Source: a virus
Reading direction: 5' to 3' (one strand)
IMG/VR virus record: IMGVR_UViG_3300010371_000061
Span: 1-41,459 of that record
DNA length: 41,459 nucleotides
Shown: positions 11,618-40,519 of the stretch, piece by piece
Layout: each line of letters starts with the position of its first letter
Numbering within the stretch: position 1 is the stretch's first letter
The notes under the pieces: generated by a model
What the model was told of the DNA's origin: nothing
Databases searched by the model: none
The model's input: only the letters and a program-made list of their open reading frames with translations
Position numbers and translations under genes: made by a program

Positions 11618-13273
11618 GTGACAAATTTATTGCATGATAAAAAATCTACGTTTCAACTATTCGCTGGCTTGATGGCAAATCCAGATATATTAGCAAATAC
11701 TAAAGAGTATAAATTAAGCACAGATGATTTTCCAGAACAATTTCATAAAATTATATTTGGAGCAATATACAACTTACAAAAACAAGGAATTGAAAAAATC
11801 ACAAGGTTTGAAGTCGATAATGCTCTTTCTGCATTTCCTAATCAATATCGTATCTACAATGAGAATAATATGAATGGAAATGACTACTTACTCAAAGTTG
11901 AGGAGTTTGGAAGTCCAGAAAACTTTAATTTACACTATGATAGAATTAAAAAATTCTCTTTCTTGCGGTCATGTGAAGGAAAAGGAATAGACATTACAGA
12001 CATATATGATAAGAATGAAGTAGGCATCAAAGAAACAGAAGCTCAACAATATTTGTTTGATACGACACCTTTAGATGACATGATTAGATATGTTGAAGAT
12101 AAATTTTTAACTATTAAGGACGAGTTTCTGTTTAATAATGGAGGACTGCAAGGTTCTCACGCTTCTGATGGGTTGATGGATATATTAATAGAGAAGATGC
12201 AGAAGCCATCATATGGAGCAAGTTTCAGTTCAGGGTTATATACAGCAGCTACTAGGGGAGCTAGACGTAGAAAAGTATATCTCAATTCAGCACCATCAGG
12301 AACAGGTAAGAGTCGATTTGCAATATCTTCTATGTTGGCTCTGTGCGTTCCTGAGATATGGGATAGTAAGCTTCAACAATGGGTTCAAACAGGCGCTACA
12401 GGTCGTTGCTGTTATATAGGAACAGAACTAGAAGAGGAAGAAGTTAAGATTCCTATGGTTTGCTATGTAGCAGATATTCCAGAAGATAAAATTAATGATG
12501 CCACATTAACATTTGAAGAGCAAGAAAGAGTATTGCGAGCGGTAGAAATACTGAAAATGACACCGTTTTGGTTCGAGCCTTTGGACGACTTTGATTTGAG
12601 TGACATTGAACATGCAATTGTAAAAAATATCAATAGAAATCAAGTAGACTTCATATCTTTTGATTATATTCATACTAGTATGAAGCTTCTGGCATCTATG
12701 AGTAAGTTTAGACTTCAAGAGCACCAAGTATTACTACAGATGTCTATAAGGATTAAAGAATTAGCTAATAAATATGATGTGTTTATCATGACAGCTACTC
12801 AACTTAATGGAACATATAAAGATGGAGACATGGATGATAATAGTCTTTCTGGTGCTAAGTCTATCGCTCAAAAAGTTGACATCGGGAGTATCATGTTAAA
12901 CTTAAATGAAAAAGATGAGGCAATTATAGATTCAATCATGAGTGGAAGTCAGACTGGAACAGGTAAATTCTGCTCTCGTCCTAATATGTCAATAAACCTT
13001 TATAAAAACCGAGGAAACAAATGGAAACTAGTAAGACTATGGATAAACTTTAATTTGGGCACTCTTCGGATTGAAGATTGTTTCGCTACAAATTATAAGG
13101 GTGAGCCAATAAATGATTTAGAGTCTTTGTATGTTGTATTTGATGAGCAAGAAGAAATGGATTTAGACAGTCTTCCAGAAGGATTTAGAGACTATCTAAA
13201 GGGAGAAGATGTAAAAGATGCTCTTCCAGATGTGTTTAATGAAATAGCTCAAGAAGCACCAAAGCTATTCTAG
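11618..13273 (+). CDS. DnaB-like replicative helicase
   Basis: GTG start directly after the previous TAA, with ATCGGGGG upstream. The 551-aa protein has a DnaB-like N-terminal helical domain (about residues 1-130) and a RecA-type motor. Walker A is SAPSGTGKS (about residues 224-232). Walker B is in VDFISFDYIHTS (about 341-352). The TATQLNGTYKDG and SLSGAKSIAQKVD segments match helicase motifs H3-H4 with the nucleotide-sensing Gln. It unwinds DNA 5'-3' as a hexamer at the fork, paired with the primase encoded next. Length is slightly above the usual 450-500 aa because of an insert after Walker A and an acidic tail. Confidence 0.85.
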   Translation: MTNLLHDKKSTFQLFAGLMANPDILANTKEYKLSTDDFPEQFHKIIFGAIYNLQKQGIEKITRFEVDNALSAFPNQYRIYNENNMNGNDYLLKVEEFGSPENFNLHYDRIKKFSFLRSCEGKGIDITDIYDKNEVGIKETEAQQYLFDTTPLDDMIRYVEDKFLTIKDEFLFNNGGLQGSHASDGLMDILIEKMQKPSYGASFSSGLYTAATRGARRRKVYLNSAPSGTGKSRFAISSMLALCVPEIWDSKLQQWVQTGATGRCCYIGTELEEEEVKIPMVCYVADIPEDKINDATLTFEEQERVLRAVEILKMTPFWFEPLDDFDLSDIEHAIVKNINRNQVDFISFDYIHTSMKLLASMSKFRLQEHQVLLQMSIRIKELANKYDVFIMTATQLNGTYKDGDMDDNSLSGAKSIAQKVDIGSIMLNLNEKDEAIIDSIMSGSQTGTGKFCSRPNMSINLYKNRGNKWKLVRLWINFNLGTLRIEDCFATNYKGEPINDLESLYVVFDEQEEMDLDSLPEGFRDYLKGEDVKDALPDVFNEIAQEAPKLF

Positions 13274-17753: not shown

Positions 17754-19505
17754 ATGTATAAAAATATAAATATGGAGATGATTGAAATTTATACGCTCGG
17801 AGATAGTAGTAACAGCTTACTTAATATCCTTGGAACAGTTGCAAAAAATCGTAGCATAGAAGATATCGAAAAATTTCTTAATCCATCTTCTTCTGATGTT
17901 ATTCATTATAGCAAATTAAAAAATATGGATTTAGCGGTAGAAATGCTAGAAAAACACAAAGAAAAGGACTCAGAATTTGTAGTCGTAATAGACAGCGACG
18001 GAGATGGATATACTAGCAGTTGCATTCTATACAGATATCTAAAACGTCTAATTCCTAATATTAAAATAAACTATATTATGCATGAAGGAAGAGCAAACGG
18101 ATTAACAGAGCAAATTATGGAAGAGATTAACAAGTTAAATCCAGATATTGTAATTTTACCTGATGCCTCCAGTAATGACCTCTCACAGCACAAAACATTG
18201 CACGAAAAAGGAATAGATGTCCTCTGTCTTGACCATCACGAATTGACAGGTGAAGAATCTAAATTTGCGGTAGTAGTCAACCCACAATTGTCTCCAGAGC
18301 ATAAAAATAAGCAAATATCAGGGTGTACTGTGACTTATAAATTCCTTAAAGCTCTGGATGAAGAGTATGGAAATGATTGGGCAGATGATTACTTAGATTT
18401 AGTAGCATTGTCGAACGTATCTGATGCCATTGAGATAGTGCATCCTGATGTTAGATATTTGACATACAAAGGATTTGAGAAGATAAACAACCCTTTTCTT
18501 AAGGAGTTGGCATTTAAAAATGCAGGATGGACAAAAGGCAAGCTGTTTCCTCACGTTCTCAGTTGGTCTATTTTACCAAAACTGAATTCGCTTATTCGAG
18601 TAGGGAGTGCAGAAGAAAAACTCGATATTTTTGAAGCTTTTATTGGGATGGAGAGAGAATTTTATAATACGCGCACAAAGAAAACGGAGTCGCTAGTCCA
18701 AAAATCTGCGAGACTATGTACAAATTCATATGCTAAACAGAAAAGGATACGCACTAAATTAGTAGAAAAAATAAAAGAAACAGTAGAAAGAGAAGAATTA
18801 GATAAGAATGCAGTCATTTTCCTTACCTTAGATGAGTTTCAAGAAGGGTTAGCAGGTTACATCGCTGGAGGTTTAACAAATGAATATCATCGACCAGTAG
18901 TGTTAACTTCGTGGAACAAAAAAGAAGATATGTACACAGGAAGTTTACGTGGATACTCTGGAGGAGCTATCACAGATGTTAAAGAGCTTCTTGAAAAAAC
19001 TGAGTTGTTCTCACTTTTGGCGGGTCACGGAAACGCGGCAGGTGTCAAGATAACAAAAGAAAACTCTTTAAACTTAAATGAGAAAATTAACTCTGTGCTT
19101 CAATTTGAGACAGAAAAGAAATCTGATATAGAAGTAGATTTTGAGATTAAAGGGTCATCCTTGAGCAGTGCATTGATAGATAGATTTGAGGAGCATTCAA
19201 AATTGTGGTGTAAAGGTTTTGAATCTCCTCGGATAGCAGTTACAGACATTGAAGTAAGAACGTCTGATATACAAGTAGGAAGCACTATGAAGTTTAATAA
19301 AGGAAATGTGGAAATAGTATCTTTTAGTGTAGACCCTGAAATTGAAAGGCTGACACTAGAAAAAGATTCTATTTTGAATTGTACGATTCTAGGAACAGTT
19401 GGAATTAATAGATTTTTAGGAAAAGAGACCTATCAGTTGGTCGTTGAGAAAATAGTCGTTAATGAAATAAAAGAAGCCCCAGCAAAAAGAAAATTCCAAT
19501 TCTAA
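17754..19505 (+). CDS. RecJ/DHH-family single-strand exonuclease
   Basis: The 583-aa protein has the full DHH set. Motif I is VVVIDSDGDGYTSS (about residues 75-88) with the Asp cluster. Motif II is VILPDASSND. Motif III is DVLCLDHHELTG (about 155-167). The C-terminal DHHA1 domain carries LLAGHGNAAGVKI (about 420-432), and an OB-like domain occupies the last 120 residues. RecJ degrades single-stranded DNA 5'-3' and supports recombination and repair. With the RusA-like, SSB-like and Sak4-like genes it completes a recombination kit. The ATG at 17754 has only a weak AAGA site. Confidence 0.85.
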   Translation: MYKNINMEMIEIYTLGDSSNSLLNILGTVAKNRSIEDIEKFLNPSSSDVIHYSKLKNMDLAVEMLEKHKEKDSEFVVVIDSDGDGYTSSCILYRYLKRLIPNIKINYIMHEGRANGLTEQIMEEINKLNPDIVILPDASSNDLSQHKTLHEKGIDVLCLDHHELTGEESKFAVVVNPQLSPEHKNKQISGCTVTYKFLKALDEEYGNDWADDYLDLVALSNVSDAIEIVHPDVRYLTYKGFEKINNPFLKELAFKNAGWTKGKLFPHVLSWSILPKLNSLIRVGSAEEKLDIFEAFIGMEREFYNTRTKKTESLVQKSARLCTNSYAKQKRIRTKLVEKIKETVEREELDKNAVIFLTLDEFQEGLAGYIAGGLTNEYHRPVVLTSWNKKEDMYTGSLRGYSGGAITDVKELLEKTELFSLLAGHGNAAGVKITKENSLNLNEKINSVLQFETEKKSDIEVDFEIKGSSLSSALIDRFEEHSKLWCKGFESPRIAVTDIEVRTSDIQVGSTMKFNKGNVEIVSFSVDPEIERLTLEKDSILNCTILGTVGINRFLGKETYQLVVEKIVVNEIKEAPAKRKFQF

Positions 19506-32207: not shown

Positions 32208-34256
32208 ATGACGATGGAATTTAAAGAATTTAAGGAAATCCTACAGAAAAACTTTGCAAATATCACAAAGGATACTACGCACTTATTTGAAGTTAGTGTA
32301 GACATGGATGAGATGTGGGAATTGTATCAAAGCAGTTATCCAGAGGGTACAAATATGGTGTTCCGAGAACGCCGTGAGATGGATTGCAGTTGCTGTAAAA
32401 ACTTTATTAGAAATATTGGCAATGTTGTTCTTATTGAAAATGGTAAGATTACAACTATTTGGGATGTTGAGACAGGAAGCGCGACATTTCAGCCTGTAAT
32501 GGATGCACTATCAAACTATGTTAAATCTAAAACTATTAAAGATGTATGGGTAAATAAGATTAAGAAGTTAGGTGTTAATAATAACTTTGAGAAACTTGAA
32601 AATGGAACAGTAACTGAATGGCATCACTTTTATTTAGAGCTTCCTAATAAGTTTGTTGACCATAGTGGGAAATCTGAGGCAGATGTGAAAGGAACGCTTA
32701 GAACTACACGAGATGTTTTCAAGCGTTCACTAGATGAGATTTCAGAAGATAGTCTGCTTACTGTACTAGAGATTATTGCTCAGAATTCACTATATAAAGG
32801 TGAAGAGTGGCGAAGTGCTCTAAATGAATTCTACAAATACAAGAAAAAATATGACGAACTAGAAACAGATAATGAAAAAGATGTTTATGCTTGGGAGAAT
32901 TCAGTCAAAGCTGGAGGAGCAATTGGTAGAATTAAAAATCATAGTATGGGGACTCTACTGATTAATATTAGCGAAGGAGTGGAGTTAGACTTAGCAGTAA
33001 AGAAATATGAGCAAATTGTAGACCCTGAAAACTATAAGCGCAGTAAGCCTGTGTATAGCCAGAAGATGCTGGATGATGCTAAGAAGACTCTTGAACAGCT
33101 TGGTTATTTAGAATCGCTTCCTCGTCGTCATGCAGACTTAGAAGATATCACAGTTAACAATATCTTATTCTCTAATAAAGACTCAGCTAAAACCATTGGC
33201 GGGTTGGATGTTTTTGGAGAAATGTCTAGTGATATTGCTGTTAATCCTAAGAAATTTTCAAAAGTAGAAGAGGTTTCAATTGATAAATTTGTAAGTGATA
33301 TTCTTCCAACAGCAAAAGAGATTGAAGTATTACTAGAAAACAAACATGCAAGCAATATGGTCTCACTAATTGCTCCAGTAAATAAAGATGCAAAATCAAT
33401 GTTTAAATGGGACAATCCATTTAGTTGGGCTTACTCTGGCAATATGACGGACAGTTCTATGAAAGAAAATGTCAAGTCTGCTGGAGGAAAAGTCGATGGA
33501 GTATTGCGCTTCTCTATTCAATGGAATGACAACGAGTTTGACGGCAACGATTTAGACGCACACTGCATTGAGCCCCATGGAAATGAGATTTACTATGGAG
33601 ATAAACGGAACTATGACACTACTGGTCAGTTAGATGTTGATATTACACATCCACGAGAAAACACACCAGCTGTTGAGAATATTACTTGGACAAATAGAAG
33701 CAGAATGAATAAAGGAACTTACAAATTCTACGTGAATAACTTTGCTAACAGAGGTGGAAAGACTGGATTTAGTGCTGAAATTGAGTTCGATGGTCAAGTC
33801 CATTCGTTTGACTATAGCAAAGAGCTTAAAAATAAAGAAAAAATCTTAGTGGCGGAAGTTATTTTTGATGGAGAGAATTTCAGTATTGTAGAGAAATTGC
33901 CATCAAGTGTATCATCAAGAGAAGTTTGGGGATTGAAGACTAATCAATTTGTTCCTGTATCCGTAGTTTCATATAGTTCGAACTACTGGAATGAGCAACA
34001 AGGTATTGGCAATAAGCATTTCATGTTCTTCCTGAAGAGCTGTATTAATCCTGAACAACCCAATGGATTCTACAATGAGTTCTTAAATCAAGAGTTAAAT
34101 CCACACCGTAAAGTTATGGAGGCTTTATCCTCAAAACTATCAGTTGAAAGTGTAGACAATCAGCTCAGCGGTCTAGGTTTTTCTTCTACTAAGCGAGATG
34201 AGTTGATTGTGAAGGTGACAGGAAAGACAGAGCGGGTATTGAAAATTAAATTTTAA
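32208..34256 (+). CDS. Large phage protein with YfaP/DUF2135-like domain
   Basis: ATG with TAGGAGGA upstream. The 682-aa protein opens with a domain (about residues 1-160; RERREMDCSCCKNFIRN, with CxCC, and KLENGTVTEWHHFYLELP) that, from memory, is shared by phage proteins of unknown role. A middle helical region follows. Residues 430-565 resemble a YfaP/DUF2135 domain (DGNDLDAHCIEPHGNEIYYG, then QLDVDITHP and ENITWTN). The C-terminus (FMFFLKSCINPEQPNGFYNE, then GLGFSSTKRDEL) is also shared. It lacks a signal peptide, so it acts in the cytoplasm or virion. It is paired with the 129-aa gene downstream. No enzymatic motif recognised. Confidence 0.65.
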   Translation: MTMEFKEFKEILQKNFANITKDTTHLFEVSVDMDEMWELYQSSYPEGTNMVFRERREMDCSCCKNFIRNIGNVVLIENGKITTIWDVETGSATFQPVMDALSNYVKSKTIKDVWVNKIKKLGVNNNFEKLENGTVTEWHHFYLELPNKFVDHSGKSEADVKGTLRTTRDVFKRSLDEISEDSLLTVLEIIAQNSLYKGEEWRSALNEFYKYKKKYDELETDNEKDVYAWENSVKAGGAIGRIKNHSMGTLLINISEGVELDLAVKKYEQIVDPENYKRSKPVYSQKMLDDAKKTLEQLGYLESLPRRHADLEDITVNNILFSNKDSAKTIGGLDVFGEMSSDIAVNPKKFSKVEEVSIDKFVSDILPTAKEIEVLLENKHASNMVSLIAPVNKDAKSMFKWDNPFSWAYSGNMTDSSMKENVKSAGGKVDGVLRFSIQWNDNEFDGNDLDAHCIEPHGNEIYYGDKRNYDTTGQLDVDITHPRENTPAVENITWTNRSRMNKGTYKFYVNNFANRGGKTGFSAEIEFDGQVHSFDYSKELKNKEKILVAEVIFDGENFSIVEKLPSSVSSREVWGLKTNQFVPVSVVSYSSNYWNEQQGIGNKHFMFFLKSCINPEQPNGFYNEFLNQELNPHRKVMEALSSKLSVESVDNQLSGLGFSSTKRDELIVKVTGKTERVLKIKF

Positions 34257-34321: not shown

Positions 34322-34711
34322 ATGACAAACACTAACTTATTTGAGGTTGCAGTACGAGAAAAATTACGGTTCACTTATAAGGGATATCTGTCAACGGAAG
34401 ACGTCTGGGACTTATCGGTCAGTGAACTGGACACTATCTTCAAATCATTAAATTCTCAGCTAAAACAAGCTCAAGAGGAAAGCTTGCTAAATACAAAAAC
34501 AGCTGAAGATGTTGAGCTGGACACAAAAATTGAAATCATTAAACACATCTTTAATGTGAAAGTTGCTGAAGCGAATGCACGTCTACAAGATAAAGAAAAA
34601 GCTGAAAAGAAACAGCAAATCTTAGGTCTCATTAAGAAAAAACAAGACGAAGCAACAGAAGAGAAGTCGGTTGAAGAGCTACTAGAAGAGCTTGCTAAAT
34701 TAGAAGACTAA
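34322..34711 (+). CDS. Conserved helical phage protein, 129 aa
   Basis: ATG with AAAGGAGAATGATTTATT upstream, the same leader as the SSB-like gene. It begins NLFEVAVREKLRFTYKGYLS and continues WDLSVSELDTIFKSLNSQLK, a sequence I recall as widely shared among phage proteins located next to the large protein family above. The remainder is a charged coiled coil. Function unknown; pairing with the 682-aa protein suggests a complex. Confidence 0.6.
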   Translation: MTNTNLFEVAVREKLRFTYKGYLSTEDVWDLSVSELDTIFKSLNSQLKQAQEESLLNTKTAEDVELDTKIEIIKHIFNVKVAEANARLQDKEKAEKKQQILGLIKKKQDEATEEKSVEELLEELAKLED

Positions 34712-34720
34712 TAGTATAAT
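34692..34720 (+). promoter_or_regulatory. Promoter for the ABC/PspA operon
   Basis: TTGCTA (34692-34697), 17 nt, then perfect TATAAT (34715-34720). It lies across the end of the 129-aa gene. Predicted start near 34727, inside the following hairpin. It gives the ABC operon its own transcription unit. Confidence 0.65.
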
Positions 34721-34721
34721 G

Positions 34722-34741
34722 AGAGAGGAGAAATCCTCTCT
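34722..34741 (+). terminator. GAAA-capped hairpin at the operon boundary
   Basis: AGAGAGGA (34722-34729), loop GAAA, TCCTCTCT (34734-34741). The tail TCTCTAATAAG is only moderately T-rich, so termination of upstream transcription is possible but may be leaky. It overlaps the start region of the 34692 promoter. Confidence 0.5.
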
Positions 34742-34771
34742 TCTCTAATAAGTTTTAGTAAGGAGCTAAAT

Positions 34772-35530
34772 ATGTTCAAAATAAGAGCAGTTAAACGCAT
34801 ACTTCCCATTATCTTTGTTTTAATATTGTGGGCAATTGGAAGTCAATTTAGTAGTCCTTTGTTTTTACCCCAACCTACAAAAGTAGGGGAAACATTTTTA
34901 GGGCTAATTCAAAATGGAATGCTTATAGAATCAGTGAAAGTTTCCTTTTTGAGAATAACTTCAGCAACAATCTTAGCAGCGACCATTAGTATTCCGATTG
35001 GACTTCTTGTGGCAAACTACAAGTTCATTGATGATATAATTACTCCAATTACTAGTTTCATGAGATTTATGCCAGTGACAGCATTTTATCCTCTGTTGAT
35101 TATGTGGATTGGAATTGGAGAGCTAATGAAAGTGTCATTTCTATTATTTGCGACAGTGTTCTTCTTCTTACCAACAGTTATCTTAGCTGTAAAAGATGTA
35201 AGTGTTGATTTAGTAGATACGGCTAGAACAATGGGGATGTCGAAATTAAAAGTAATGACTAAGGTTCTTTTACCAGCCTCACTCCCTTCAATATCCCAAT
35301 CTTTCTTAATGATGTATGGGATTGGATGGACATATATCATTATCGCAGAGATGATAAATACAAATGTTGGATTAGGATACTTAATGAACATTGGTTCAGC
35401 ACGAGGAAGAACGGATATGGTATTCGCTGCTTTAATAGCTGTTCTAATTGTCAGTTACATTTTTGACACTATTGGTAATGCTACTATTAAAAAAGTGTTT
35501 AAGTGGAAGTTTATTCGAAAATCTGAGTAA
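34772..35530 (+). CDS. ABC transporter permease (NitT/TauT-type)
   Basis: ATG with AAGGAGC upstream. The 252-aa protein has about six membrane helices and the permease signature (EAA loop) at VDLVDTARTMGMSKLKVMTK with the following LPASLPS (about residues 150-175). FMPVTAFYPLLIMWIGIGE and GIGWTYIIIAEMI match the SsuC/TauC/NrtB class that imports nitrate, sulfonates or thiamine-pyrimidine-type ligands. It pairs with the ATPase and the substrate-binding protein of the same operon. Substrate unknown. A full ABC importer in a phage is unusual. Confidence 0.8.
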   Translation: MFKIRAVKRILPIIFVLILWAIGSQFSSPLFLPQPTKVGETFLGLIQNGMLIESVKVSFLRITSATILAATISIPIGLLVANYKFIDDIITPITSFMRFMPVTAFYPLLIMWIGIGELMKVSFLLFATVFFFLPTVILAVKDVSVDLVDTARTMGMSKLKVMTKVLLPASLPSISQSFLMMYGIGWTYIIIAEMINTNVGLGYLMNIGSARGRTDMVFAALIAVLIVSYIFDTIGNATIKKVFKWKFIRKSE

Positions 35531-35553
35531 TCTATGAGGCGGTGAGAACAAGA

Positions 35554-36180
35554 ATGATACAGGTAGATAACTTGAGTGTTTCTTTTGGAAGCAATAAAGT
35601 CCTAAACAATTTGAATCTTGATTTTGAAGATAATAAAATATATTGTGTATTGGGTCGTAGTGGTACGGGCAAGTCAACGCTATTAAGAAGTATTGCTGGA
35701 TTGATTGTACCTTCTGACGGGAAAATAGTTTACAATAATAAAGAGATTACAAAACCAAATGAAAATATATTTATGATGCATCAAAACTATACAAACTTTC
35801 CTTGGAAGGACTGCATGGAGAACGTATTATTCCCAATAAAACTTAAACGAAAAGCTACTAGAGAAGATTATATCGAAGCTACTAAACTTTTAGTTAGGGT
35901 TGGATTGGGAGAGCACATCAAGAAGTATCCAGAGCAACTATCAGGCGGTCAAAGGCAACGCCTATCTTTAGCCAGAGTCTTAATGAGCAAACCTAAAGTA
36001 ATCCTTATGGATGAGCCATTGAGTGCCCTAGATGATAAGACAAGAGAAGAGATGCAAGACCTTATAATGAATCTTCAAAAAGAAACTAAGAATACAATTA
36101 TTATGATTACTCACAGTAGGGAAGACGCCGATAAAATGGCTGACCATATAATTCAATTAGAAGGAGAGAAAGTAAAATGA
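35554..36180 (+). CDS. ABC transporter ATP-binding subunit
   Basis: ATG at 35554 with GGCGGTGAG upstream. Walker A GRSGTGKS (residues 34-41), Q-loop MMHQNYTNFPW, signature LSGGQRQRLSLARVLMSKP (from residue 129), Walker B VILMDEP (149-155), D-loop SALD and switch His in ITHSRED are all intact, so it should be an active ATPase. At 208 aa it is short for the NitT/TauT class, lacking an extended C-terminal region. Its stop overlaps the next ATG by 4 nt, indicating coupled translation. Confidence 0.85.
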   Translation: MIQVDNLSVSFGSNKVLNNLNLDFEDNKIYCVLGRSGTGKSTLLRSIAGLIVPSDGKIVYNNKEITKPNENIFMMHQNYTNFPWKDCMENVLFPIKLKRKATREDYIEATKLLVRVGLGEHIKKYPEQLSGGQRQRLSLARVLMSKPKVILMDEPLSALDDKTREEMQDLIMNLQKETKNTIIMITHSREDADKMADHIIQLEGEKVK

Positions 36181-36752
36181 CAAAGAAAAAATCGTGGTTA
36201 GAAAAATTGAAATTAGTAGAAGTAGAAGAGGGTTTTAATCAAGATGAACTGATTGAGAGTTTGCAGACACAATCACAACAGATGGATGCATATATTCCAC
36301 CTCAAGAATTCTCGCAAGCAATCTATCAATTTACAGAAGAAGACTTCTTGACAGTAGAGGAAATCTATGGGAAGATTGAGATGTCAGATTTAAGCAAGTC
36401 AATCTTCAAGATTGAGGAGTTTAAGAAACATTTTCCTGACAGTCTGCCTTCTGAAGTAAAGCGTCAGACAGTCATTGGCATTTTAGAGGCAGCTGGACTA
36501 AGTTTAGAGGAGTTGATTGAAGATGCAGAAGGGCGGATTAATGCTCTCAAAGGAGTTTCAGTAGTAACCAATGAAAAAAGCAATCTAGTTGTTATGGAGA
36601 AAGAGGAAGAGATTGATAGTCTACTGAGTAAGATAGACTCTCTGAAACAAGACAATATTGATAGAAAGACAGCACAAGAAAAGCAAGATAGCTTAATTGA
36701 TGAGGAATTGGACAAGATTGGTCAAATTTTAAAGTTTATCTCATCTAAATAA
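36177..36752 (+). CDS. Helical protein of the ABC/PspA operon, 191 aa
   Basis: ATG overlaps the ATPase stop, with AAGGAGAG upstream. Residues 1-50 are polar. A central helical domain (about 55-135) includes EEIYGKIEMSDLSKSIFKIE and VKRQTVIGILEAAGLSLEEL. The last 50 residues are a coiled coil (SLLSKIDSLKQDNIDRKTAQ). No signal peptide or membrane helix. Its position between ATPase and PspA-like genes suggests a cytoplasmic adaptor. No family recognised. Confidence 0.65.
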   Translation: MTKKKSWLEKLKLVEVEEGFNQDELIESLQTQSQQMDAYIPPQEFSQAIYQFTEEDFLTVEEIYGKIEMSDLSKSIFKIEEFKKHFPDSLPSEVKRQTVIGILEAAGLSLEELIEDAEGRINALKGVSVVTNEKSNLVVMEKEEEIDSLLSKIDSLKQDNIDRKTAQEKQDSLIDEELDKIGQILKFISSK

Positions 36753-36766
36753 AAGGAGGAAATAAT

Positions 36767-37501
36767 ATGGAAATTATTGTTTTAGGAATTATTGTTATTG
36801 TATTAGCTGGAGTGTTCATTTTTGGAGGGAAACCTCTAAGAGTATTACTCAAGGGATTTATAGGGGTATTTATTGAAGATAGAGCCAAAACTCCAGAAGG
36901 TGCGGCTGCGGTCTATAATCAAGTTATTGATAAAGCTCAAAACGATTATGCTATAGCTCACAATACTCTTCAAAAAGTTGCAGGTCAATTGGACTCTTCT
37001 AAAAAGAGTGTAGTATCTACCAAAGATAAAATACAGAAATCAGAGGAAAAATGCGAGGCATTTGCGAAGGCTGGTCAATTTGATAAGGTAGACTTATTTG
37101 CTGAGCAACGCGACAATCTTATCGAGGAATTGGGGAATCATGAGAGAGCAGTTAAAGAACTGGAGCCAATTTTTGAGGAAGCTAAGCGTATTAGTAATTA
37201 CTTAGAGAAAAAACTAACACAATTAAAAGCAGACAAAGTTCGCGCTATCAATGACCTTAAATTAAATAAACAGCTTAAAGATATGTATGATGATATGGAA
37301 GAGTTAAAAAATACTACAAATATTGATAAGCTTCTAGGCTCTGTTAAAGAGGGAGTGAAAGATTCTCGCGAGCAAGCGGTAGGAGCTAGAGTTGTACACG
37401 GCAACAAGTTATCTACTAAAATTTCAGATGCGGACGAAGAAGCAAAAAAGCTAGTTAGAAATGATTACGCTGAAGAATTGAAAAGAAAATATCAAAAGTA
37501 A
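36767..37501 (+). CDS. PspA/IM30-like protein with N-terminal membrane anchor
   Basis: ATG with AAAGGAGG upstream. Residues 1-20 form a hydrophobic helix (MEIIVLGIIVIVLAGVFIFG). The rest is a long antiparallel coiled-coil hairpin typical of PspA/Vipp1/ESCRT-III-like proteins (VYNQVIDKAQNDYAIAHNTL; KEGVKDSREQAVGARVVHG). Canonical PspA uses an amphipathic helix rather than a true transmembrane segment, so this one is permanently anchored. PspA proteins bind stressed membranes and preserve the proton gradient. Here it probably shields the membrane near the transporter, which is inference. Confidence 0.65.
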   Translation: MEIIVLGIIVIVLAGVFIFGGKPLRVLLKGFIGVFIEDRAKTPEGAAAVYNQVIDKAQNDYAIAHNTLQKVAGQLDSSKKSVVSTKDKIQKSEEKCEAFAKAGQFDKVDLFAEQRDNLIEELGNHERAVKELEPIFEEAKRISNYLEKKLTQLKADKVRAINDLKLNKQLKDMYDDMEELKNTTNIDKLLGSVKEGVKDSREQAVGARVVHGNKLSTKISDADEEAKKLVRNDYAEELKRKYQK

Positions 37502-37535
37502 TATCACATATGACATGAGAAAAGGATGATGAAAA

Positions 37536-39107
37536 TTGAAGATGATGAAAATGACCTTTGCTGGAAAGCTTCTTGCTTTTGTTTTAGCTATAATGGTAGT
37601 TCTTGGATGTACGTACTTTGCTGGAGGGTTTAACTTCTTAAAAGATGTAGGGAGCTCAGTAGTTTCTGATGGTGGTAATTCTGATAATGGAGTAGCCAAA
37701 AAGAATGGCTCTAAAAAATCAAAAGCATCAGATGAAATCAATATTTCTATTGACGAATGGATTGGTTGGTCAACAATCATTTCTGCAAATGGTGGTTTAA
37801 AGACACAAAAAGGCTCTATTTTTGATGAGTTAGGAATTAAAGTTAACATCAGTGTTATTAATGATGCAACACAATCTTCAAACGCATTAATTAAAGGAGA
37901 TATTGATGGTGCTGGATACACGGTTAATCGCTATGCTTTCTTATATCCTAAATTTAAAGAGAATGGTGTAAATGCAGTAATGCCATTCATTACAAACTTC
38001 TCTTCTGGTGGAGATGGAATCATTGCGAAAGACAGCATTAAGAGCGTAGAAGACCTTGTAGGTAAGAAAATTGCAGTGCCTCGCTACAGTGAAGCACAAA
38101 CATTGGTATGGTGGTTGTTGAATAAATCAAATCTAACTGAAAAAGAAATTGAGCAAATTCACAATGACATGGTATTATTTGATACTCCAGATGACGCAGC
38201 TAAAGCATTCTTCGCTGGACAAGTAGATGCAGCTGCAACATGGCAACCATATTTGTCACAAGCACAAGAAACAACTGGAGCTCGACTATTATTCTCTACA
38301 AAGGCAGCACACAACATTATTCTTGATGGGATTGTATTCGATAAAAAATTCCTAGATGAAAACAAAGAGCTAGTTTCTAAATTCATAGAGGGTACGTTAC
38401 TTGCTATGCCTCTATATAAAACAGAGTTCACATCGGTTAAAAACTCAATGCCACTATTCTCTACTGAAACAAATGAGAGTATTGCAGAAATGGCAAAAGA
38501 TGCAGACCTTGCTGGTTATGCAGAAAACCTTGAGCTATTAGCTTCTACAGCTAAAAATCTATTCGTTGATATGAGCGACATTTGGTCAGCACTGGGTGAA
38601 AAATCCATGTCAGAAGAAGTAGATAACGCATTCGAAACATCTACGTTAGAGCTACTATCTAATAAATTTGACTCGAAAGAAGTGCATGGTGCTCCATCGT
38701 TTACAGAAGAGCAACGTCAGCAAGCTCAACAGGTTGATAATGTTGAATCTTTATTGAAGAAATCTGTAACAATTGAGTTCCAGCCTAACTCAGCAGCTTT
38801 CTTGGATGCTGAACAAGCGTCTAAAGTGTTAGATGAATTTGTTGGAATTGCTAAGATTCTCAATGGCTCTGTCATTCAAATTGAAGGCAACATTAATGAT
38901 ACAGGAATTGGTGAAAGTGAAGCTGGTAAAAAACTGTCCTATCAGCGAGCAAAAACTGTTTCAGAATACTTGAAGCATAACGATGTTGACCCGTCACGAT
39001 TTGTTATTGTTGGAAACGGCATTTCTAAACAAGTTGGAGATAATAAAACAGAAGCAGGTAAACAACAAAATCGTCGGACAGACATTTTCTTTAAAATAGT
39101 TGAATAA
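37536..39107 (+). CDS. Substrate-binding protein fused to OmpA-like domain
   Basis: TTG at 37536 is 10 nt after AAAGGATG; ATGs at 37542 and 37545 are alternatives. Residues 5-27 are a signal/anchor segment with VVLGC, a possible lipobox. Residues 65-400 are an NMT1/SsuA-type substrate-binding fold (INISIDEWIGWSTIISANGG; GKKIAVPRYSEAQTLVWWLL; FAGQVDAAATWQPYLSQAQE). Residues 410-523 are an OmpA-like peptidoglycan-binding domain (KKLSYQRAKTVSEYL and QQNRRTDIFF). The protein would sit outside the cell membrane, tethered to cell wall, feeding ligand to the permease. Confidence 0.75.
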   Translation: MKMMKMTFAGKLLAFVLAIMVVLGCTYFAGGFNFLKDVGSSVVSDGGNSDNGVAKKNGSKKSKASDEINISIDEWIGWSTIISANGGLKTQKGSIFDELGIKVNISVINDATQSSNALIKGDIDGAGYTVNRYAFLYPKFKENGVNAVMPFITNFSSGGDGIIAKDSIKSVEDLVGKKIAVPRYSEAQTLVWWLLNKSNLTEKEIEQIHNDMVLFDTPDDAAKAFFAGQVDAAATWQPYLSQAQETTGARLLFSTKAAHNIILDGIVFDKKFLDENKELVSKFIEGTLLAMPLYKTEFTSVKNSMPLFSTETNESIAEMAKDADLAGYAENLELLASTAKNLFVDMSDIWSALGEKSMSEEVDNAFETSTLELLSNKFDSKEVHGAPSFTEEQRQQAQQVDNVESLLKKSVTIEFQPNSAAFLDAEQASKVLDEFVGIAKILNGSVIQIEGNINDTGIGESEAGKKLSYQRAKTVSEYLKHNDVDPSRFVIVGNGISKQVGDNKTEAGKQQNRRTDIFFKIVE

Positions 39108-39116
39108 TTGAAGCTT

Positions 39117-39143
39117 ACTCCTCTAATTAGAGGAGTTTCTTTT
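39117..39143 (+). terminator. Strong rho-independent terminator
   Basis: ACTCCTCT (39117-39124), loop AATT, AGAGGAGT (39129-39136), then TTCTTTT. It lies 10 nt after the substrate-binding gene and cleanly ends the ABC/PspA operon. Confidence 0.8.
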
Positions 39144-39735: not shown

Positions 39736-40128
39736 ATGATGAAAGAACTAGATAATATTAAACAGCTAAATGAAAGGCGCGAGGTATTAGAAAAAGAGTT
39801 GAAAGATATTGTAACTGAGATTGTGCTATATAATCTAAAAAATGAATTACAGAAGCCATTAAGTGATGCTGGAATTGAAGTGACTAGCATTGAATGGGAT
39901 TTCTATCCTGAGTCAGATGATGAGGGTGGAAGTATTTACTATCCGTCAGGATTGGAAATTAATACTGTTGACAACAAAGATTTAGAAGGAGTTACAATTA
40001 AGGAAGTGTACTATGGCGATGAGTATGACACAGACGTAGACGAATTTATTCGAGAGAAGCTATCTTATTATAGCTCTGATTTATATGATTATGATATTTA
40101 TGAGATTGTGTTTAAGGAGGAGGATTGA
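39736..40128 (+). CDS. Hypothetical coiled-coil protein, 130 aa
   Basis: ATG at 39736 with AAAGGAAG upstream (39718 in frame lacks a site). N-terminal coiled coil (KQLNERREVLEKELKDIVTE), then an acidic beta-rich part with YYPSGLEINTVDNKDLEG. Its last codons supply the AAGGAGGAGG site for the next gene. Function unknown. Confidence 0.6.
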   Translation: MMKELDNIKQLNERREVLEKELKDIVTEIVLYNLKNELQKPLSDAGIEVTSIEWDFYPESDDEGGSIYYPSGLEINTVDNKDLEGVTIKEVYYGDEYDTDVDEFIREKLSYYSSDLYDYDIYEIVFKEED

Positions 40129-40129
40129 T

Positions 40130-40519
40130 ATTTCACATCCCCTAGTTCACGCCAAGAACTCTGCTAAGAGGTTTGGAGGAGTACCAGACGATTATATTGA
40201 GATACACCAATGGTTTGATATGTCGAAAGAAGCAATGTCAGATATGCGCCATAGAGCATTGAGACACCACACTGTAGGAATTTATGATGCAGAGAGACTG
40301 TTTGGGAAAAGCATCGTCAACTCCGATGGCAAGGAAGTATTTGTGCGCTACATTGGAGAACAGCACATCCTCGAAGATTTAGGCTTCATTCCGAGTCTTG
40401 AAGATTGGTTTATTAATATGGAAATGCAGAAGTGGATGATGAGTCGAGATATGAGAATCCATAAAGCAAATAAAGCTAAAGATAAACTGCCTAAGAGTTT
40501 AGTAGGTAAAGTGAAATAA
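40130..40519 (+). CDS. DUF6915-like protein, probable AUU start
   Basis: The frame has no ATG, GTG or TTG between its strong ribosome site AAGGAGGAGG (40114-40123) and the conserved start of the protein. ATT at 40130, six nt after the site, gives (M)SHPLVHAKNSAKRFGG, matching DUF6915 proteins, which begin SHPLIHA-like from memory. Further family marks are HQWFDMSKEAM, HRALRHHTVGIYDAERLFG, VRYIGEQHILEDLG and IPSLEDWF. The 129-aa protein has many conserved histidines and could bind metal. Function unknown. The next ATG overlaps its stop by one base. Confidence 0.6.
   Translation: MSHPLVHAKNSAKRFGGVPDDYIEIHQWFDMSKEAMSDMRHRALRHHTVGIYDAERLFGKSIVNSDGKEVFVRYIGEQHILEDLGFIPSLEDWFINMEMQKWMMSRDMRIHKANKAKDKLPKSLVGKVK

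Follow-up and report, generated by a model that had tools for sequence, protein, structure and literature searches.

Genes for an ABC importer pair, a PspA-like protein and an OmpA-fused binding protein share a conserved operon in large phages

In a single sentence, Ravi et al. (2024, mSystems, PMC11237479) described a kind of bacterial operon, exemplified by OGG56892.1, that encodes a PspA/Snf7 homologue with a transmembrane (TM) segment, an AAA+ ATPase, an ATP-binding cassette (ABC) ATPase, a permease and a PBPB-OmpA protein. From this bacterial operon they inferred a link between membrane remodeling and solute transport. Here we analyze a five-gene operon in a 41,459-base IMG/VR virus record, IMGVR_UViG_3300010371_000061 (the window; all coordinates are window positions unless another record is named), which encodes a permease, an ABC ATPase, a small helical protein, a TM-anchored PspA-like protein and a substrate-binding protein (SBP) fused to an OmpA-like domain. 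This phage cassette is a variant of the barely described bacterial system, and the operon is best explained as a bacterial envelope module in a form carried by phages. We tentatively propose, at somewhat short of an even chance, that a wall-tethered ABC importer and a PspA-type scaffold maintain the host envelope during a long infection while feeding the cell a small anion. In the literature we searched, which did not cover subscription papers and supplements, we found the module described for no phage. The five genes are:

34772..35530, + strand: ABC importer permease, TauC/SsuC/NrtB type, 252 amino acids (aa)
35542..36180, + strand: ABC importer ATPase, 212 aa
36177..36752, + strand: helical protein, 191 aa
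36767..37501, + strand: TM-anchored PspA/IM30-like protein (ESCRT-III superfamily), 244 aa
37536..39107, + strand: NMT1/SsuA-like SBP with a C-terminal OmpA-like domain, 523 aa, TTG start

All five open reading frames (ORFs; 34772-39107) are intact, with intergenic gaps of 11, -4, 14 and 34 nt and purine-rich stretches resembling ribosome-binding sites upstream of their starts. A sequence-only reading of the window had proposed a five-gene operon with these gene identities and a pairing of importer and PspA-like protein, and profile searches, gene packing and conserved gene order bear it out. The operon call is based on the tight packing and the conserved order and not on the promoter- and terminator-like sites listed further below. 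The nearest relative is a 166-kb viral contig (L007), to which amino-acid identity is 69-87%. The ratio of nonsynonymous to synonymous substitution (dN/dS) in this comparison is 0.05-0.12 for the four genes with unsaturated dS; where computable, the module genes are thus under purifying selection. Together with the conservation of all five genes in diverged relatives, these values led us to reject chance or decayed ORFs. The genes have also been inherited together, as pairwise distances of the five proteins correlate (Mantel r 0.78-0.91, with 0 of 2000 permutations as high).

A whole importer had been thought a rarity in phages. For this module that expectation was wrong: large phages carry the cassette repeatedly. 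It was found in Bacillus phage G, in the Lak phages, in a 735-kb phage and on dozens of large viral contigs, as well as in bacteria. In a tblastn search of 50,697 phage records, the SBP-OmpA protein was matched over most of its length in phage G, all 15 listed Lak phages, both records of the 735-kb phage and one gut contig, and at representative loci the companion genes adjoin it. Two scans of IMG/VR returned 46 loci on contigs of up to 512 kb, one of them phage G again (45 further loci). Since a terminase is present on 16 of 20 larger viral contigs, most of these are plainly phage. The genes are arranged in two orders, permease-ATPase-small-PspA-SBP in the window and phage G (G type) and small-PspA-SBP-permease-ATPase in the Lak type, which is also the order on Bacteroidota chromosomes. 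With the phage G duplicate left out and the other loci pooled, the full set stands in order at 29 of 34 G-type and 13 of 17 Lak-type viral loci.

Scanning bacterial genomes yielded 80 loci, mostly from Bacteroidota; 39 have the Lak-type order, and contig ends truncate many of the 80. Isolates with the module include Tenacibaculum dicentrarchi (on a 629-kb contig), Dysgonomonas and Flavilitoribacter nigricans, and an AAA+ gene recurs beside the module in 7 bacterial loci. Some of the loci in metagenome-assembled genomes (MAGs) may be mis-binned phage. The module SBP is rare in evenly drawn samples, some 300 genomes from each of three phyla: those of a Mycoplasmatota MAG and of Tenacibaculum gave one match each, the seed itself, and the third gave 6 of 299, seed included, the others being partial or distant. 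Among 97 SBP-OmpA proteins placed in a quick, unrooted tree with long branches, the G type forms one virus-only clade of 26 (SH-aLRT 100), and sequences of the Lak phages and their relatives branch among those of Bacteroidota; the tree gives no direction of transfer for the G type.

The importer belongs to the NitT/TauT type on three counts: an SBP of the NMT1/SsuA class, a BPD_transp_1 permease and an ATPase with complete motifs. The permease matches Pfam BPD_transp_1 (1.5e-22) and has hydrophobic segments and an EAA-like loop; its best NCBIfam matches are the SaoP, TauC and SsuC models, all below cut-off. The ATPase, predicted from the letters alone to be complete, matches Pfam ABC_tran (3.3e-31) and carries every motif (Walker A GRSGTGKS, LSGGQ, Walker B VILMDE and the H-loop THS), and these motifs are intact in most family members. 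The best profile matches of the SBP are SsuA_fam (1.6e-25, far below cut-off) and the TauA and SsuA structures. Among the NCBIfam matches shown, none reached the equivalog cut-off for any known substrate. The closeness of the SBP to SsuA/TauA and of the permease to TauC/SsuC would fit a plain auxiliary-metabolism importer for taurine, sulfonate or a similar anion, in which the PspA-like and OmpA parts only stabilize the transporter. However, all of these matches lie far below the family cut-offs, no sulfonate-catabolism gene was noticed beside the window operon, and the core trio of small, PspA-like and SBP genes, considered below, persists without a linked transporter. Because the trio can stand in this way, we regard a plain importer as improbable.

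The 523-aa protein had been described as a secreted SBP fused to an OmpA-like domain. The fusion stands, with matches to both Pfam NMT1 (2.9e-12) and OmpA (7.4e-11), and so withstands a check that the sequence-only reading had named as able to refute it; full-length homologues occur in phages and bacteria. The secreted state does not, since an N-terminal hydrophobic TM segment at residues 12-30 makes the protein better called membrane-anchored. Within the OmpA domain, an Asp and an Arg correspond to the residues of A. baumannii OmpA that contact diaminopimelate (DAP) in the wall. The Arg is kept in 122 of 122 aligned sequences. The Asp is universal in the 80 bacterial and 16 Lak-type sequences, and among the 26 G-type sequences it is Asp in 8, Asn in 14 and Ala in 3, the window having Asn. 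This pattern suggests that wall contact is altered in G-type phages.

Assignment of the 244-aa protein to the PspA/IM30 family, a check set by the sequence-only reading itself, is weak for the window protein alone (E=0.005 against PspA_IM30, below the Pfam cut-off) and clear across its family. PspA_IM30 is matched by 40 of 64 homologues, the best at 7.8e-11, and a profile of the 64 finds Vipp1/PspA chains as its best matches in the PDB (4.4e-8); by these profile comparisons, membership is confirmed at the family level. Like the SBP-OmpA protein, the 244-aa protein starts with a hydrophobic segment. AlphaFold2 models this as a hydrophobic helix, after which comes a long hairpin (H43-101/H105-242) whose core has a predicted local distance difference test (pLDDT) score >90. 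Foldseek places Vipp1/PspA on top, but at E>0.01 and with other coiled coils scoring similarly; because coiled coils resemble each other, these matches are too weak to serve as proof.

At nearly every locus, the gene for the 191-aa protein lies next to that for the PspA-like protein. A family-wide hidden Markov model and an AlphaFold2 model (mean pLDDT 85) give it a short conserved N-terminal motif, a linker, a small helical region and a long C-terminal helix. It matches no Pfam family and no fold in the PDB, and its only clear structural relative, in a viral library, is its phage G homologue gp246. An N-terminus resembling the amphipathic helix 0 of PspA was considered and rejected, as the hydrophobic moment is 0.46 vs 0.47 for shuffled sequences.

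The small, PspA-like and SBP genes form the core of the module and occur together in nearly all loci, with the permease and ATPase genes before them, after them or elsewhere. One alternative is that the SBP-OmpA protein and the ABC pair act as a wall-tethered envelope sensor, detecting wall stress or a ligand and gating assembly of the PspA-like and 191-aa proteins with little net import, by analogy with ABC modules in some antibiotic-sensing systems. The constancy of the trio fits such a sensor, as does a permease/ATPase pair that is permuted, unlinked or, for the ATPase, missing from some viral contigs, and in a related cluster on Vibrio plasmids TelA and a vWA protein take the place of the PspA-like protein. 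The intact ATPase motifs speak against it. So does the permease itself: in 6 of 7 searched genomes whose bacterial trio lacks a linked permease, the specific permease is present elsewhere, which argues that the transporter is a true partner. We consider the sensor doubtful, though worth keeping in view.

Returning to the proposed importer with an envelope scaffold, the data show which genes it has, their homology and contiguity, their joint inheritance under purifying selection and how far they have spread; we infer how its parts might work together, from complex formation, transport direction and ligand to expression timing and benefit to the phage. The permease and ATPase would form an importer resembling TauABC/SsuABC. 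The SBP would be held to the inner membrane by its N-terminal helix and to peptidoglycan by its OmpA domain, and could thus act as a strut between membrane and wall next to the transporter. On the cytoplasmic face of the membrane, the TM-anchored PspA-like protein and its 191-aa partner might polymerize into an ESCRT-III-type scaffold that braces or remodels the membrane around the importer complex. By expressing the module, the phage would allow a cell undergoing a long large-genome infection, or carriage, to keep an intact and energized envelope. The imported solute would be a small anion, perhaps a sulfonate. The sequence-only reading had suggested an energized envelope supplied with an anionic or thiamine-like nutrient; the data are compatible with this idea, which leads in the modified form given here, and a thiamine-like ligand is less supported than a sulfonate- or taurine-like one, SsuA_fam, TauA and SsuA being the best matches.

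This proposal draws on profiles that identify four of the five proteins and on a hairpin model of the PspA-like protein that matches Vipp1/PspA, albeit with weak E-values. It is supported by the conserved five-gene order, the correlated distances, purifying selection, the invariant OmpA Arg, the bacterial operons of Ravi et al. (2024) and avoidance of TAG in Lak-A2. In the Lak-A2 module, TAG, whose reading as Gln is predicted, occupies 0 of 60 Gln codons vs 26 of 56 in the terminase and an adjacent 505-aa gene (Fisher p=1e-10). Work cited in PMC11165621 proposes that recoding in phages of this kind holds late proteins back; with no TAG codon, the module would be translatable before the recoding switch, and the codon pattern fits expression before the late genes. 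Several other neighboring Lak-A2 genes also lack TAG, so the pattern marks the module as 'not late' and gives it no special status.

Several observations weigh against the proposal. Four viral contigs, which may be incomplete, lack any matching ATPase; the host may supply the enzyme, its gene may lie on the missing part, or import may not be the essential part of the system. No AAA+ gene comparable to the partner in the bacterial form recurs within 6 kb of the phage modules; 17 of the 18 viral records (the window being a fragment) lack AAA_lid_6, the exception being phage G, which has it far from the module. Finally, the DAP-contact Asp is replaced by Asn or Ala in 17 of 26 window-type sequences, and for this reason wall binding is only predicted in that type.

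Different phage backbones carry the cassette. A DnaB-like helicase and a RecJ-like nuclease of the window (11618-13273 and 17754-19505) have their nearest relatives in SPbeta-like Bacillus phages and Geobacillus virus E3 rather than in phage G, pointing to a probable host among the Bacillota. We therefore rejected the idea that the window is a phage-G-like genome, the flanks of the module also being different. Flank clustering within 6 kb revealed no extra partner gene recurring across phage lineages, and a fixed additional partner was likewise rejected.

Presence on unrelated backbones would suit a role in superinfection exclusion, in which the scaffold and strut protect the cell from competing phages and membrane-targeting defenses by preventing DNA injection or pore damage. 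Other envelope-stress genes are known from large phages, and the Ter/TelA systems of jumbo phages have been proposed to act against superinfection (Iyer et al. 2021, PMC7824862). The proteins scanned at the window locus include none with a TelA or Ter domain. Defense-specific homology is lacking: PADLOC gave strong matches only for the ATPase, to ATPase models, its remaining matches being weak coiled-coil or MotB-type ones, so that a known defense system was rejected. The same module, moreover, sits alone among unrelated genes on Bacteroidota chromosomes. We judge superinfection exclusion to be unlikely, though like the sensor worth keeping in view. A broader proposal, which we would put forward only with considerable doubt, extends the envelope-maintenance reading: unrelated lineages of large phages with hosts in different phyla might hold in common a prokaryotic ESCRT-III-like, wall-anchored envelope guard that seals the host and perhaps closes it to other phages, re-tuned to the wall chemistry of each host and working without the cellular AAA+ disassembly ATPase.

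The operon is flanked by the following sites:

34692..34720, + strand: promoter-like site TTGCTA-17-TATAAT, 10/12 consensus, best in the region scanned, within the end of the upstream ORF
34722..34746, + strand: hairpin of 10 pairs, directly 3' of the promoter-like site
39117..39136, + strand: terminator-like hairpin with a T-rich tail, directly 3' of the operon

The flanking promoter, hairpin and strong terminator claimed from the sequence alone thus exist as sites, but they are not clearly commoner than in shuffled sequence. Promoter-like sites in the region total about the shuffled expectation, and terminator-like sites number 2 vs 1.7 expected, the position of 39117-39136 being apt. L007 has no terminator-like site, and neither promoter nor terminator is conserved there; with site numbers near chance, a conserved promoter and terminator were rejected. 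The hairpin at 34722-34746 may be the terminator of an upstream operon encoding 682-aa and 129-aa proteins. The 682-aa protein (32208-34256; phrog_1735, function unknown) is found in about 500 phage records, with its best match (62%) in Clostridioides phage pCD1602_4 and one Vibrio homologue annotated YfaP; homologues lie near the module also in L007 and another locus (L050). A full-length DUF6915 protein (1.3e-45) is encoded at 40085-40519. The G+C content of the window is even (0.33-0.35) and shows no sign of recent insertion. Annotated or apparent RNA-ligase-like and kinase-like genes precede the module in locus L014 (2519-3421) and in phage G (L002, 3976-5958), suggesting a common module neighborhood for these two.

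Phages ranging from Bacillus phage G to the Prevotella megaphages conserve the cassette, which suggests that large phages are under selection to keep the host envelope intact. Its presence in phages also broadens the known range of a bacterial system for which we found a description in one comparative-genomics sentence only. Since phage G is culturable, cooperation of PspA/ESCRT-III-like proteins with transport and the cell wall becomes testable on one small operon. Its genes gp243-gp250 are the same as those of the window and in the same order, at 42-69% identity; unlike the window, phage G carries a second SBP-OmpA gene and two additional small genes. The tandem SBP-OmpA paralogues, gp249 and gp250 (L002, 10001-13206), possibly serve two ligands for one transporter.

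Compared with better-known systems, the module resembles SsuABC/TauABC of the NitT/TauT type in SBP class, permease family and ATPase family. It differs in that its SBP is OmpA-fused and membrane-anchored, its genes are linked to those of the PspA-like and 191-aa proteins, and its scores fall far below equivalog cut-offs. The resemblance to PspA/Vipp1 (IM30) lies in profile homology and, in the model, in the long helical hairpin; here, an N-terminal TM helix replaces amphipathic helix 0, and no PspF or PspBC partners are present in the cluster. A related cluster shared by Vibrio plasmids and a 595-kb phage comprises two SBP-OmpA proteins, a vWA protein, an SBP, a permease and an ATPase, and the plasmids have TelA at the place of the phage's putative PspA-like coiled-coil protein. 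On the plasmids (L053, 13395-22766; L054, 8393-17755) these genes, the SBP being a free one, lie near an RctB-domain replication gene and are uncharacterized; in the phage (LR756511; L006, 7860-16422) the coiled-coil proteins have no Pfam match.

The phage form departs from the operons of Ravi et al. (2024) in being phage-encoded, in having no nearby AAA+ gene and, in the window type, in having mostly lost the OmpA Asp. The window and phage G also have a permuted gene order, and phage G a second SBP paralogue. Because the linked AAA+ gene is absent, we regard the phage module as a related variant rather than the same operon. Common to both is the combination, in one operon, of a TM-anchored PspA-like protein, an ABC ATPase, a permease and an SBP-OmpA protein, and in Tenacibaculum the exact gene set of Ravi et al. 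(2024) is found, the adjacent AAA+ gene included.

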